Below the pieces are notes generated by a model. That model was not told the origin of the DNA, did not search any database, and worked only from the letters and a program-made list of their open reading frames with translations. The position numbers and the translations under genes were made by a program. Source: a virus. From it: DNA of 32,968 nt. Shown here in pieces: positions 21,309 to 31,695 of the stretch. How positions within the stretch are numbered: position 1 is the stretch's first letter; the number at the start of each line of letters is the position of its first letter. The stretch lies in the IMG/VR virus record IMGVR_UViG_3300021403_000038, positions 1 to 32,968 of that record; one strand, 5' to 3'.

Positions 21309-21519
21309 GGATCCTCCTCCTGCCACTCACCGCGAGCATCTCTCGCATCACCGCAGACCGCGTCATCTGCACCTCTTCGCGCACGTGCATCAGATCGCCC
21401 ACACGTGCGAAGTTCTGGCGCTTGTATGCCGCCTGGGCCCAGCGCTCGAGTCGGACCATGTCGCGAGCAAAGCGGTTGCACGCCTGACGTAGCTCGAGGA
21501 CGTACTCGTCGTCATACAT
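21286..21519 (-). CDS. 77-aa helical protein, unknown
   Basis: ATG 21519 (MYDDEYVLELRQACNRFARD) is preferred, as it overlaps the end of the nuclease gene by only a few codons. The longer frame would extend into nuclease coding sequence. The protein is all helix and basic, with DLMHVREEVQMTRSAVMREM near its centre. No motif is recognised. It is retained because start and stop both fit the overlapping pattern of the operon. Confidence 0.5.
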   Translation of the reverse strand: MYDDEYVLELRQACNRFARDMVRLERWAQAAYKRQNFARVGDLMHVREEVQMTRSAVMREMLAVSGRRRIREALREA

Positions 21520-22261
21520 GGACGCGGGCCCTCGGCGTGGTGCGCACGTCACACACGTGCTCGTGGCCCCACTTCTCGCCGCATTGCGGACACGCGCCGT
21601 GCTTGCCGTGGCACTCGTAGTGATCCATGCGCACGTCCGCGGCGATGATCGCCATGCGCTCGAGCGCGTCGGTCATCTGTGCCACGATTTCGCCCGCGGT
21701 CCACTCGCGACGGAAGCGCTGCATCTGTCCCGTGACACGGTTGAGGACGATGTACTCAAAGGTGCCGTCGTACCGCGGCTCAGTCTCCCAGCGCGCCATC
21801 GTGTAGACCACGGGTTGCCAGATCTCTTTCTGCGCGCGCTCCTGCGACCACAGACCACGCGTGGTCTTGAAGTCGTACGTCACGCCATCAGAGCCCCACA
21901 GGTCGATGGCGCCGACGATGGGCGCGTCCAGGAGTTCGTTCGTGTCGATGCTGAAGCCGCGCTCTGGCGTGCCTTCCAGCTGGAGCTCCTGCACCTGCTC
22001 GATCAGGTCCATGCCCATGCGCGTCAGCCCCTGATCGACGTCGCCTAGCTCGAGCACGAACTCGCGCCACGCGGCACGGAACGCGCGGATGCCGTCATCG
22101 CCGCGGTAGTGCGCCTCGAGACCCATGTGCACCGCGCTGCCGAACAGCATCGCCTCGGATTTCTGCACAGGACACTCGTCGATGTAGCGCGCCTTCCAGG
22201 CCCCGGGGCATTGATCCCAAAGCATGAACTTCGACGCTGACCAATGCGAAACGACAACCAT
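21512..22261 (-). CDS. RecB/Cas4-like PD-(D/E)XK exonuclease with rebuilt N terminus
   Basis: A protein of 249 aa. The N terminus has SHWSASKFMLWDQCPGAWKA, the usual opening of phage RecB/Cas4-like nucleases. The core motifs follow: APIVGAIDLWG (first Asp), then VTYDFKTTRG (D-x-K). A helix with QPVVYTMARW and a C-terminal cluster CHGKHGACPQCGEKWGHEHVC come next; the latter probably binds zinc or an Fe-S cluster. Such enzymes resect DNA ends in phage recombination and replication. The gene's native start appears to lie at 22809, now separated by an HNH gene, and translation now starts from a second copy of the first exon-like segment at 22261. Confidence 0.8.
   Translation of the reverse strand: MVVVSHWSASKFMLWDQCPGAWKARYIDECPVQKSEAMLFGSAVHMGLEAHYRGDDGIRAFRAAWREFVLELGDVDQGLTRMGMDLIEQVQELQLEGTPERGFSIDTNELLDAPIVGAIDLWGSDGVTYDFKTTRGLWSQERAQKEIWQPVVYTMARWETEPRYDGTFEYIVLNRVTGQMQRFRREWTAGEIVAQMTDALERMAIIAADVRMDHYECHGKHGACPQCGEKWGHEHVCDVRTTPRARVHV
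22202..22261 (-). repeat. Inner copy (A) of the duplicated 5' end of the nuclease gene
   Basis: These 20 codons (MVVV, then SHWSASKFMLWDQCPG) open the working nuclease gene. They match the outer copy at 22750-22809 at 38 of 50 aligned bases. Nearly all differences in the shared 16 codons are silent, the one visible change being Ser to Thr. Confidence 0.75.
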
Positions 22262-22295
22262 CAGCGCGCCTGCCCCTTCGTAGACTGGGTAGCTC

Positions 22296-22775
22296 TTGTC
22301 TGAATCTTTGCCCTTTGAAGCGCTAGACCCCGTCCGTCTGGCGTATTACGAACGCTGTCTCGAAACGGCGTACATGCTGACGCGAGTCGCTTACCGGGAC
22401 GATCACTGGATCTGGCTTGGGGCGACAACTGTTGGCGGATACGGGTACCTGGGGCGGCGAACACGCCCCAACGCACTCGCCCACCGGTACTTCTACGAGC
22501 ACTTCGTTGGACCGATCCCTGAAGGACTGCACCTCGATCACGTTTGCCGCGTGAAGCTGTGCGTGAATCCGAATCACCTCGAGCCAGTGACCCAGGCCGA
22601 GAACAACCGCCGCGCAGTGCGTCACCCGCTAGCGTGCCCTCAGGGGCATGAATGGACGCCTGAGAACACAGAGTTCTGGCGCGGCTGGCGCAAGTGCCGA
22701 ACGTGTCATCGTGAACGCGAAGCAGCGCGCAAGCAACGGCTGAAGGCTCGCCCGGACACTGGTCCCACAGCATGA
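22296..22775 (+). CDS. HNH homing endonuclease (HNH_3 type), free-standing
   Basis: Up to 159 aa, on the strand opposite to its neighbours. The start is uncertain: TTG 22296 gives the full frame, and the first in-frame ATG is 22374. The domain is complete either way. WIWLGATTVGGYGYL, then LAHRYFYEHFVGPIPEGLHL, DHVCRVKLCVNPNHLEPVTQ and AENNRR form the ββα-metal HNH fold with His-Asp-His at LDHVC and Asn-Pro-Asn-His at the second His. A C-terminal zinc-like part (CPQGHEWTPENT, CRTCHRERE) follows. The last eight codons run into the antisense of the duplicated nuclease start. It is a selfish mobile gene inserted into the nuclease gene. Confidence 0.85.
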   Translation: MSESLPFEALDPVRLAYYERCLETAYMLTRVAYRDDHWIWLGATTVGGYGYLGRRTRPNALAHRYFYEHFVGPIPEGLHLDHVCRVKLCVNPNHLEPVTQAENNRRAVRHPLACPQGHEWTPENTEFWRGWRKCRTCHREREAARKQRLKARPDTGPTA

Positions 22776-22809
22776 ACTTGGTCGCGGACCAGTGCGATAA
22801 GAATGTCAT
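22750..22809 (-). pseudogene. Outer copy (B): displaced original 5' end of the nuclease gene
   Basis: It encodes MTFL followed by SHWSATKFMLWDQCPG from ATG 22809, which overlaps the stop of the methyltransferase gene as ATGA, the coupling used across this operon. After codon 20 homology to the nuclease stops, and the frame runs on antisense through the HNH gene to 22261. This is best read as the native start of the nuclease gene, cut off by the HNH insertion. Confidence 0.7.
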
Positions 22810-23357
22810 GCAATCCCCCACTGCTCAGCCATCGCTGCCGCCAGCCCCGGCAGCGTGCGCGAACGGTCTTTCCATCGGTGCGAACTGGGTGGCATCCAGT
22901 GCACCCGCGGCGTGCGTCCTTTCACGATGTCTGTTGCACGGAGCGGTGGCAGGTTCTTGAGCCACAGCGCTGTCGCCTTGACCTCGCCGTGCCCGAACCA
23001 CCACGGCTGCACGATCTGATCGCTTGGGCGCCACAGGCTGGTCAACATGCCGATGGGGTTCTCGATGGCGACGCGCGGAATAGGCGCGTCGTACAGCGTG
23101 CGCACGAACCGCACAGCCTCCATCTGTCGTTCCGTGCCGCGATGCCAGCGCGCGCCGCTACGCGCCAGATACGTGCACGGCGGGTGAAAGATCGCCAGAT
23201 CCCAGCCGTCGTCCAGGATCTCGAGCACGTCACCCTGGATGTGGAACAGGCGCCCGTCCTCGGCGGGCAGCAGGTCGCAACTCCACGCGTCATGTCGGCG
23301 ACGCTCGAACGCCTGACGCACCACGCCGCTGAACTCGCAGCCGATCAGGACTCTCAT
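22806..23357 (-). CDS. C5-cytosine DNA methyltransferase-like protein (phage orphan type)
   Basis: A protein of 183 aa from ATG 23357, which overlaps the preceding stop (ATGA); longer frames extend into that gene. It belongs to a compact phage family: SAM-binding motif I at MRVLIGCEFSGVVRQAF, acidic motif near HDAWSCDLLPAEDG, catalytic motif IV FHPPCTYLA, motif VI AIENPIGM, then a conserved WWFGHGEVKATALWLKNLPP. It lacks a separate target-recognition domain and is half the size of usual C5 enzymes, as is normal for this family. It may protect phage DNA from host restriction. No partner restriction gene is present. Confidence 0.75.
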   Translation of the reverse strand: MRVLIGCEFSGVVRQAFERRRHDAWSCDLLPAEDGRLFHIQGDVLEILDDGWDLAIFHPPCTYLARSGARWHRGTERQMEAVRFVRTLYDAPIPRVAIENPIGMLTSLWRPSDQIVQPWWFGHGEVKATALWLKNLPPLRATDIVKGRTPRVHWMPPSSHRWKDRSRTLPGLAAAMAEQWGIA

Positions 23358-23566
23358 CGCCCCTTCGCCTTCATCGCCAGCTTGACGTAGCCAGAGGGCG
23401 CCTCTTTGGCAGGGATCGAGTGCCAGGTACCCCACGGATCGCGGACGTTGACCCACCCCAACTCGCGGCCCCAGACAACCTTCGGAGGCCAGAAAACTTC
23501 CTGTATGGTGTCTTCACCTATAGGTGGAATACGCATACGGCTTTTTTCGAGGGGCTTAGTCGCCAT
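23354..23566 (-). CDS. 70-aa basic protein between primase and methyltransferase, unknown
   Basis: ATG 23566 follows GGAGG in the end of the primase gene and overlaps it by 11 bp. The protein is basic, with a Trp-rich beta-like centre (WPPKVVWGRELGWVNVRDPW) and a short helix at the end (YVKLAMKAKGR). No family is recognised. Coupling on both sides supports expression with the replication genes. Confidence 0.6.
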   Translation of the reverse strand: MATKPLEKSRMRIPPIGEDTIQEVFWPPKVVWGRELGWVNVRDPWGTWHSIPAKEAPSGYVKLAMKAKGR

Positions 23567-29904: not shown

Positions 29905-31695
29905 ATGGCACCCAAGCAGTCTGCCGCCAAGCGGCGCGTGCACCTTGTTCCCCTGTCGCCTGTTGTCCGTGCTTCCCAGGACGTGCCCTACGGTCGCGTC
30001 AGCAGCGACATCCAGCACGACTCCCAGACAATCGAGACGCAGAAGCGCATCCTGCGTAAGGACATCACGAGCCGTGATGACCCCAACCTCCCGGTCGGCG
30101 AGCAGCGCAAGCTGGTCGACGAGTTCTGGGACGATCCGTGCAGCGGAACGATCCCCTTCGAAGACCGCCCCGAAGGCAAGCGGCTCGTCCGCAGCATCTG
30201 CGCCCGCGGCGACATCGACTGCGACGGCTCCTGCGGCGGCACCGGCATCGTCATTGACACGGTGTGGGTCACCAAGCTCGACCGCCTCGCGCGACGCCTG
30301 CTGATTCTGATCGAGATCGAGAAGTTCCTGCGCCTGCACCGCGTCGGACTGAAGTGCCTCGAGCACAACATCGATACCTCGAGCCCGACTGGCGCACTGA
30401 TTTTCACCATCCTGGGCGCGATTGCGCAGTGGGAACACGGCGTCATCCTCGAGCGCACCGCGAACGGCAAGCGCACCAAGACTGTGGAGGGCAGACACAT
30501 GGGTCGTAAATCCCTCGGGCTCAAGACGGACGAGCAAGGCTACCTCGTCATCGACGACGCGCTCGTCGGCCAGACCGGCAAGATGGCGTACCAGATCGTT
30601 CAGGAAGTCTTCGCCAACATCATCGACGGCTCCAGCATCGAGCGTGAGGCAGAGCGGTTCGGCATCACGCCGCGACGCATCCACCTGATGCTCCACAACC
30701 CGAGGTACCGAGGCGAGGGCGGCATGTACTGGGACGGCAACTGGATCGCCGCCGAGAGGAACAAGCCCCCGCAGCTGGTCTCGCCCGAGGACTGGGAACT
30801 GGCCCAGGAAAAGCTCGCTGACCACAAGCGCTTCGCGGCGCGCAATCGCAAGCGCGAGTACATCGTCTCGTCGCTGATGATTTGCCACGAGCCGAAGGAC
30901 AACGGCACCCCTTGCGGGCGCGTGTTCGTAGCTCGCACAGCGAAGGGCAAGTACGCGTACTACTGCTGCTACCGCAAGGGCTGCACCGCTCACCCGATCC
31001 GCGGCAACGACGTCGAGACCGCCGTGTGGACTGCGGTGCGCGAGCGGCTCGTCAACCCGGACGCGTGGCTCCAGCGCGCGCTCGAACAGGGAGGCCAGAC
31101 AGACAAGGTGCGCGAGCTTCGCTCAGAGCTCTCGGTCGTCATCGACAAGCTCTCGAAGCTGAGCACGCAACGACTGAGCGTGGCGCGCCAGACCGACGAA
31201 GGCGTCTATACCGAGGAAGAAAGCAGAGCGCGCCAGGCAGAGATCCGTGAGCAGGTCGAAAGCCTGACCGACCGCAAGACCACGCTGGAGATCCAATTAC
31301 GTCTTGTGAACAAGTCCCAGGCGACGCTGCGCCGCTCAGGGCTACAGTCGGTGGATATCGGTCCTGAGCTTGACCGCATCGAAGCCTGGTGCGAGTCGTC
31401 CGACCCCGAAGAGGTTCACCGTGGTCGGACGCAGAAGACCGCGCTGATCAGATCACGTATCGAACGCATCGAGGTGCGGAACGGCTCAGGCGGGCAACGG
31501 CTAACGATCTTCTGGAACGAGGACGAGCACGCCGACGAGTTGTCGCTTACGCCTCGTGGGTCAGCACAAGCGTTGTGTAATGAACAACCAATCCTGATCG
31601 TGACCGAACTCGATCTGCCCGCCCCGTGCGGTCAGGGTCGACGTACCGATCTCGAAACCTTGTCGAGCGAGGAGGCGTCCGGCATACTGGCCTGA
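29905..31695 (+). CDS. int: Large serine integrase
   Basis: A protein of 596 aa from ATG 29905. The N-terminal resolvase catalytic domain (about residues 26-190) has VPYGRVSSDIQHDSQTIETQ with nucleophile Ser33, VTKLDRLARR with the active-site arginines, and a helix near IFTILGAIAQWEHGVILER. The recombinase domain follows (about 200-300; GITPRRIHLMLHNPRYRGEG). A zinc-ribbon domain (about 320-370) has ICHEPKDNGTPCG and YYCCYRKGCTAH. A coiled coil (about 395-475, ELRSELSVVIDKLSKL) ends the protein. The enzyme recombines phage attP with host attB. It is followed by a strong terminator. The window as a temperate phage rests mainly on this gene. Confidence 0.92.
   Translation: MAPKQSAAKRRVHLVPLSPVVRASQDVPYGRVSSDIQHDSQTIETQKRILRKDITSRDDPNLPVGEQRKLVDEFWDDPCSGTIPFEDRPEGKRLVRSICARGDIDCDGSCGGTGIVIDTVWVTKLDRLARRLLILIEIEKFLRLHRVGLKCLEHNIDTSSPTGALIFTILGAIAQWEHGVILERTANGKRTKTVEGRHMGRKSLGLKTDEQGYLVIDDALVGQTGKMAYQIVQEVFANIIDGSSIEREAERFGITPRRIHLMLHNPRYRGEGGMYWDGNWIAAERNKPPQLVSPEDWELAQEKLADHKRFAARNRKREYIVSSLMICHEPKDNGTPCGRVFVARTAKGKYAYYCCYRKGCTAHPIRGNDVETAVWTAVRERLVNPDAWLQRALEQGGQTDKVRELRSELSVVIDKLSKLSTQRLSVARQTDEGVYTEEESRARQAEIREQVESLTDRKTTLEIQLRLVNKSQATLRRSGLQSVDIGPELDRIEAWCESSDPEEVHRGRTQKTALIRSRIERIEVRNGSGGQRLTIFWNEDEHADELSLTPRGSAQALCNEQPILIVTELDLPAPCGQGRRTDLETLSSEEASGILA

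Follow-up and report, generated by a model that had tools for sequence, protein, structure and literature searches.

Why should a phage nuclease gene open twice, with an HNH endonuclease gene lodged between its two starts? The question is raised by a stretch of viral DNA of 32,968 nucleotides (IMG/VR record IMGVR_UViG_3300021403_000038, positions 1 to 32,968), which is called the window below. The best reading, and a probable one, is that the locus holds a homing HNH element that carries a diverged replacement for the gene end that it cuts off.

A nuclease gene with two starts

The target is a PD-(D/E)XK exonuclease-like gene of 249 amino acids on the minus strand (positions 21,512 to 22,261), which matches PDDEXK_1 (PF12705, E=2.6e-12) and the exonuclease family phrog_69. 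Its first 20 codons, termed copy A (22,202 to 22,261, minus strand), encode MVVVSHWSASKFMLWDQCPG and are joined directly to AWKARY at the beginning of the nuclease body. A second version of these 20 codons, copy B (22,750 to 22,809, minus strand), encodes MTFLSHWSATKFMLWDQCPG, after which its translation diverges from that of the nuclease gene. The ATG of copy B overlaps, as ATGA, the stop codon of a small DNA methyltransferase gene that lies upstream in the operon (22,806 to 23,375, minus strand; phrog_757, E=3e-62). The two copies form a 52-nucleotide direct repeat (22,203 to 22,254 and 22,751 to 22,802) with 79% identity (41/52) and a spacing of 548 nucleotides. Where the encoded residues are identical, 8 of 12 degenerate codons differ between the copies.

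The inserted segment between the copies comprises 488 nucleotides (22,262 to 22,749), in which a simple scan revealed no promoter and no terminator. Most of an HNH_3 endonuclease gene resides there (22,296 to 22,775, plus strand). This gene encodes 159 amino acids from a TTG start, is antisense to the target operon and belongs to phrog_826; its HNH_3 domain (PF13392, E=2e-13) scores 50.2 bits against a curated cut-off of 24.8. The stop codon is located inside copy B, such that the last eight HNH codons and the stop are antisense to that copy. In the opposite direction, the frame that begins at copy B is unbroken for 182 codons across the entire antisense HNH gene (22,261 to 22,809, minus strand), and its TGA overlaps the ATG of copy A as TGATG, so that it ends exactly at the new start. 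When the codons of the HNH gene were permuted synonymously 5000 times, this frame stayed open in only 0.48% of the permutations.

An earlier note on this DNA had described a nuclease gene that opens twice around a plus-strand HNH gene, with 38 of 50 aligned bases identical between the copies and the last HNH codons antisense to copy B. The repeat and both reading frames were recovered here, the domain matches confirm the two proteins, and the earlier base count is consistent with ours. Two nuclease starts do flank an HNH gene in the window. Elsewhere in the window is a gene for a large serine recombinase (29,905 to 31,695, plus strand; phrog_95, integrase), and because of its presence the phage is probably temperate.

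Recurrence in other genes and phages

HNH_3 loci were gathered from IMG/VR, GTDB genomes and phage records, giving 238 distinct loci with flanks of 1.5 to 5 kb (shorter at contig ends). In each locus, the two flanks of the HNH core were compared in search of a repeat common to both. Among 107 HNH loci, the window had the highest flank-to-flank scores, with 48.2 bits for DNA (no mismatched control above 32.8) and 50.6 for protein (no control above 40), and in an unfiltered peptide scan it scored 104, compared with at most 55 in 200 control pairs. Because these scores exceed those of all mismatched controls, the repeat in the window is not due to chance. On inspection, the high-scoring mismatched controls of the 238-locus survey proved to reflect homologous flank genes or HNH zinc-finger repeats. 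C-terminal zinc-finger units are repeated in the HNH proteins of L350, L179, L223 and L262, and homologous genes are located on opposite sides of the HNH genes in L248 and L221.

Among all 238 loci, 11 reached a score of 48 or more (1.6 expected), with the window ranked first. Inspection of the survey matches produced nine further cases, seven of which are at the 5' end of the target gene and two at the 3' end. The 5' targets are a 416-amino-acid unknown gene (L164 and L215, counted as one case), a RusA-like gene (L172), a RusA gene (L337, PF05866), two other unknown genes (L308 and L218), a DUF5131 gene (L020, PF07505) and a P22-like portal gene (L261). The 3' targets are a Holliday junction resolvase gene (L225, phrog_2002) and a Sipho_Gp157 gene (L282, PF05565). 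A RecA-like gene in Gordonia phage Chidiebere, also affected at its 3' end, brings the total to ten further cases. Each copy is only ~10 to 20 codons long.

A stricter, anchored test compared the new gene start with the HNH frame. L215, L172 and L337 scored above all 20,000 mismatched pairs, and E=0.03 was obtained for both L308 and L020, with ordinary loci scoring at most 31. L218 and L261 are marginal, being close to noise on peptide score alone. For the target gene of L164, a search for relatives found none beyond L215, and no empty-site relative of L164/L215 was found.

Several candidates were set aside. The repeats of the DNA-level candidates L142, L175, L154 and L141 are weak, lack start or stop context or are of low complexity, and L258 and L158 have weak matches with an unconvincing shared start. 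L175, which was not counted, has a repeated MNMS-NASVI leader; the genes before and after its HNH gene (2,130 to 2,900 of that locus) share a start-region peptide (PE-R-MNMS-NASVI) that is possibly a common leader.

No duplication was detectable in about 96% of the surveyed HNH loci, and therefore the design is not the usual placement of the HNH family. The HNH proteins of the cases are dispersed on the HNH tree, with a median distance of 2.04 among cases and 2.09 among random pairs. Thus, the design arose, or was kept, in many lineages.

Gordonia phage Chidiebere (MN586022.1) was the only positive among 18 annotated phage loci, taken from further down the hit ranking, that were examined. The sequence repeated across its HNH gene is located after the RecA-like gene. 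The HNH_3 gene itself occupies the gap between genes 104 and 105 (~76,064 to 76,537 of the record, or ~1,417 to 1,890 of L389) and is unannotated. Gordonia phages Schomber and Kabocha match Chidiebere over the full query length; for Hanem, Gray and ChisanaKitsune, the match extends over only 80% of the query, with 98-99% identity. When Chidiebere and Hanem are aligned, identity is 99.4% until the last RecA codons and 97.4% beyond the insert, and Chidiebere carries about 480 nucleotides that are missing from the empty Hanem.

In Hanem, the RecA-like protein ends with AKRTAGTRKKLPRKK before the stop codon. In Chidiebere, it ends with AKRTGTKKLSRKKV before the stop codon, and the HNH gene follows. 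Thus, the tail AGTRKKLPRKK of the empty phage corresponds to GTKKLSRKKV in the occupied phage. The displaced native tail, GTRKKLPRKK, forms the C terminus of the Chidiebere HNH protein and is intact, including the native stop. This arrangement is the mirror image of that in the window, and it shows directly which end is new. About 55 nucleotides of the Chidiebere insert, just before the displaced tail, also have a less close match to the 3' region of RecA, as would be expected if the displaced end of an older donor had been partly replaced by recombination.

At the level of sequence, these loci demonstrate insertion, displacement and replacement of a gene end, recurrence of this arrangement in other genes and phages, and a pair of isolates of which one is occupied and the other empty. 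Two related phages could also have recombined illegitimately, with the result that a foreign nuclease start and a neighbouring free-standing HNH gene came to lie beside the resident gene; the HNH gene would then be a mere passenger with no role in the duplication. Phage mosaicism is common, copy A is as diverged as a foreign ortholog would be, and most surveyed HNH loci lack any duplication, all of which would suit such an event. Yet copies flank an HNH gene in eleven loci, in different genes and always at the extreme gene end; copies from one HNH locus resemble each other far more than copies from different loci do; and Chidiebere and Hanem differ by exactly the HNH gene and the reworded tail. 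We therefore regard a chance recombination of this sort as unlikely.

The native and the replacement start

An alignment search of IMG/VR identified 23 contigs that carry the nuclease with 34-68% identity. The nuclease start is single and uninterrupted in all 23, the segment inserted in the window is missing, and no HNH match was found in the fetched flanks. A tblastn search with the nuclease against the phage database returned no match, and a search of genome contigs with the nuclease alignment found none. One relative (L030) has the same gene order as the window, namely primase, small gene, methyltransferase and nuclease, with an ATGA overlap like that at copy B, and the methyltransferase is also upstream of the nuclease in another (L027).

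Base composition and codon choice separate the two copies. GC3 is 0.56 in copy A as compared with 0.86 in the nuclease body, 0.81 in copy B and 0.65 in the HNH gene, and copy A has the highest AT3 among the 16-codon windows of the nuclease gene. In most cases, a relative has more codons in common with copy B than with copy A. Because of the ATGA context in L030, the GC3 values and the codons shared with relatives, comparison identifies copy B as the native start that was displaced and copy A as the newcomer.

Copy B had been taken for the native start in the earlier note, with the HNH gene as an insertion and copy A as a recoded replacement, and the relatives bear out each of these proposals. 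Two findings that it had named as contrary to its view, relatives in which both copies precede full nuclease genes and an HNH gene in an unrelated place with no copy B, did not turn up in the 23 contigs. Its derivation of the copies from two long-separated genes is uncertain: S5 and K11 are common to copies A and B and are present in none of the 23 relatives, and for this reason the donor of copy A may have been a fairly close lineage.

The same two shared residues would also fit a history in which the gene start was duplicated in tandem in a single genome, an HNH gene was then inserted between the copies and the copies diverged. However, synonymous change between the copies is nearly saturated with only one residue change in 15 compared codons, and the shift in composition is confined to copy A. 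Moreover, the empty Gordonia phages have no pre-existing duplication, and no tandem starts without an HNH gene were seen, which together make this course of events very improbable. It is hardly credible that copy A is native and that copy B arrived with the methyltransferase gene, since, although a small upstream gene directly precedes the nuclease without a methyltransferase in L028 and L034, the methyltransferase gene overlaps the nuclease start in L030 and it is copy B that has relative-like codons and body-like GC3.

The features of a native end displaced by a diverged replacement extend to the other cases. Nine cases were scored with no offset in the alignment, and in each of them half or more of the degenerate codons for identical residues differ (5/10 to 8/9); in L164/L215 nearly all such codons differ, as judged by eye after alignment with a one-codon offset. 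The GC3 of the gene body is matched by the displaced copy rather than by the joined copy in eight of nine comparisons (the L218 body was assessed by eye). In L164/L215, the GC3 of copy B is farther from that of the body than is the GC3 of copy A.

Proposed mechanism and known systems

Homing genes are usually thought to spare their hosts by residing in an intron, an intein or an intergenic gap, and free-standing phage HNH homing endonucleases are assumed to spread by cutting empty alleles. The HNH elements described here enter coding sequence and appear to bring the repair along, and they do so in various phage genes, whether at the 5' or the 3' end. The window does not fit a mobile group I intron or intein, for which splicing would restore the interrupted gene and no host sequence would be duplicated: its nuclease gene is made whole by a second copy of the start, and its HNH gene is antisense.

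We propose that a mobile HNH gene together with a diverged replacement was inserted after about codon 20 of the phage exonuclease gene. The HNH enzyme would cut the empty gene close to the insertion point, and repair templated by an occupied genome would copy in both the HNH gene and the replacement end, as a single module. This end would restore the host protein, and with most of its synonymous codons changed it would presumably no longer match the cut site. Because it is reworded, the rebuilt gene would escape recutting; without recoding, repair of the gene would recreate the target. Any module that rebuilds the sequence it cuts has to differ from that sequence if its carrier is to survive, and this would account for the strong divergence of the replacement in every case. 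The recoding may nonetheless be the simple divergence of a foreign ortholog rather than selected immunity. The new gene start was previously thought to be a separate repair patch, but it seems to travel with the HNH gene, given their similar composition in most cases and the Gordonia pair.

Beyond the HNH gene, the native end would persist as a stub. This stub appears, in most of the other 5' cases, to serve as the start of the HNH gene, which ends on the new start codon, so that element and target would be translated in series. In six of them (L164, L172, L337, L308, L218 and L020) the HNH gene shares the reading frame of the displaced native start and can therefore use the target's own start codon. 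The overlap between the HNH stop and the new start measures 4 to 16 nucleotides in these six, and it is exactly ATGA in L172, L337, L308 and L218. In the window, it is the frame of the stub that crosses the HNH gene antisense and reaches the new start. This open frame, coupled with the stop-start overlaps of the sense-fused cases, suggests that the element is built to hand translation to the restored gene.

Perhaps with even odds, phage HNH elements have repeatedly and independently formed self-rescuing homing modules, in which a reworded end evades the enzyme and translation is threaded between the starts. Such modules would be a natural counterpart of recoded-rescue drives.

The closest elements known, the mORFs with an inserted foreign C terminus, are present in fungal mitochondria, in Allomyces atp6, Glomus atp6, atp9, cox2 and nad3, Rhizopus atp9, and Mortierella cox2; the two Glomus atp6 ends have 63.5% DNA identity and 91% protein identity (PMC3630166). 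As in the window, an endonuclease gene is found in a host gene, a foreign and diverged end is joined, and the native end is displaced beyond the endonuclease gene (PMC3630166). However, the fungal elements are mitochondrial, affect the 3' end and, in Glomus, encode a LAGLIDADG or GIY-YIG nuclease (PMC3630166), whereas the window is a phage contig with an HNH_3 nuclease and an altered 5' end. Most of the phage cases likewise affect the 5' end, and the HNH reading frame often continues from the displaced start and stops on the new one. The arrangement had earlier been considered less familiar, but with a fungal mitochondrial 3' version and ten more phage-type cases it is not unique. The presence/absence polymorphism of homing elements is evident in the 23 relatives without the HNH gene and, in a related case, in the occupied and empty Gordonia phages.

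Free-standing phage HNH homing endonucleases, such as the T4 mob genes and the lactococcal Skunavirus HNHEs, resemble the present elements in that the HNH gene is located among conserved phage genes. Searches by term in a T4 mobile-DNA review (PMC2988022), a phage nuclease gene survey (PMC10448857) and a Skunavirus HNH study (PMC12724721) brought up no mention of duplicated gene ends. Engineered home-and-rescue and cleave-and-rescue drives (PMC7968924, PMC7951863) combine a nuclease with a recoded, uncut copy of the target, as proposed here. These drives are synthetic, Cas9-based and used in insects, whereas the natural element replaces just 10 to 20 codons. Our literature searches, which had partial coverage, found no phage description of the design. 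As far as they reach, the phage version, with an HNH gene at the 5' end that is fused in frame and whose stop overlaps the new start, is undescribed.

With the Gordonia phages as a culturable occupied/empty pair, an arrangement known as a curiosity of fungi moves into phages, where cutting, co-conversion and recoding-based immunity are open to measurement. It also becomes possible to test a naturally occurring analogue of the engineered "cut-and-rescue" drives. Annotators should be alert to short extra gene starts, odd HNH N termini and chimeric gene ends, which may mark the presence of such elements. One junction, that of L218 (about 1,917 to 1,965), has a frameshift as assembled, which leaves the replacement start out of frame with the remainder of the target and reflects either a sequencing error or a broken gene.
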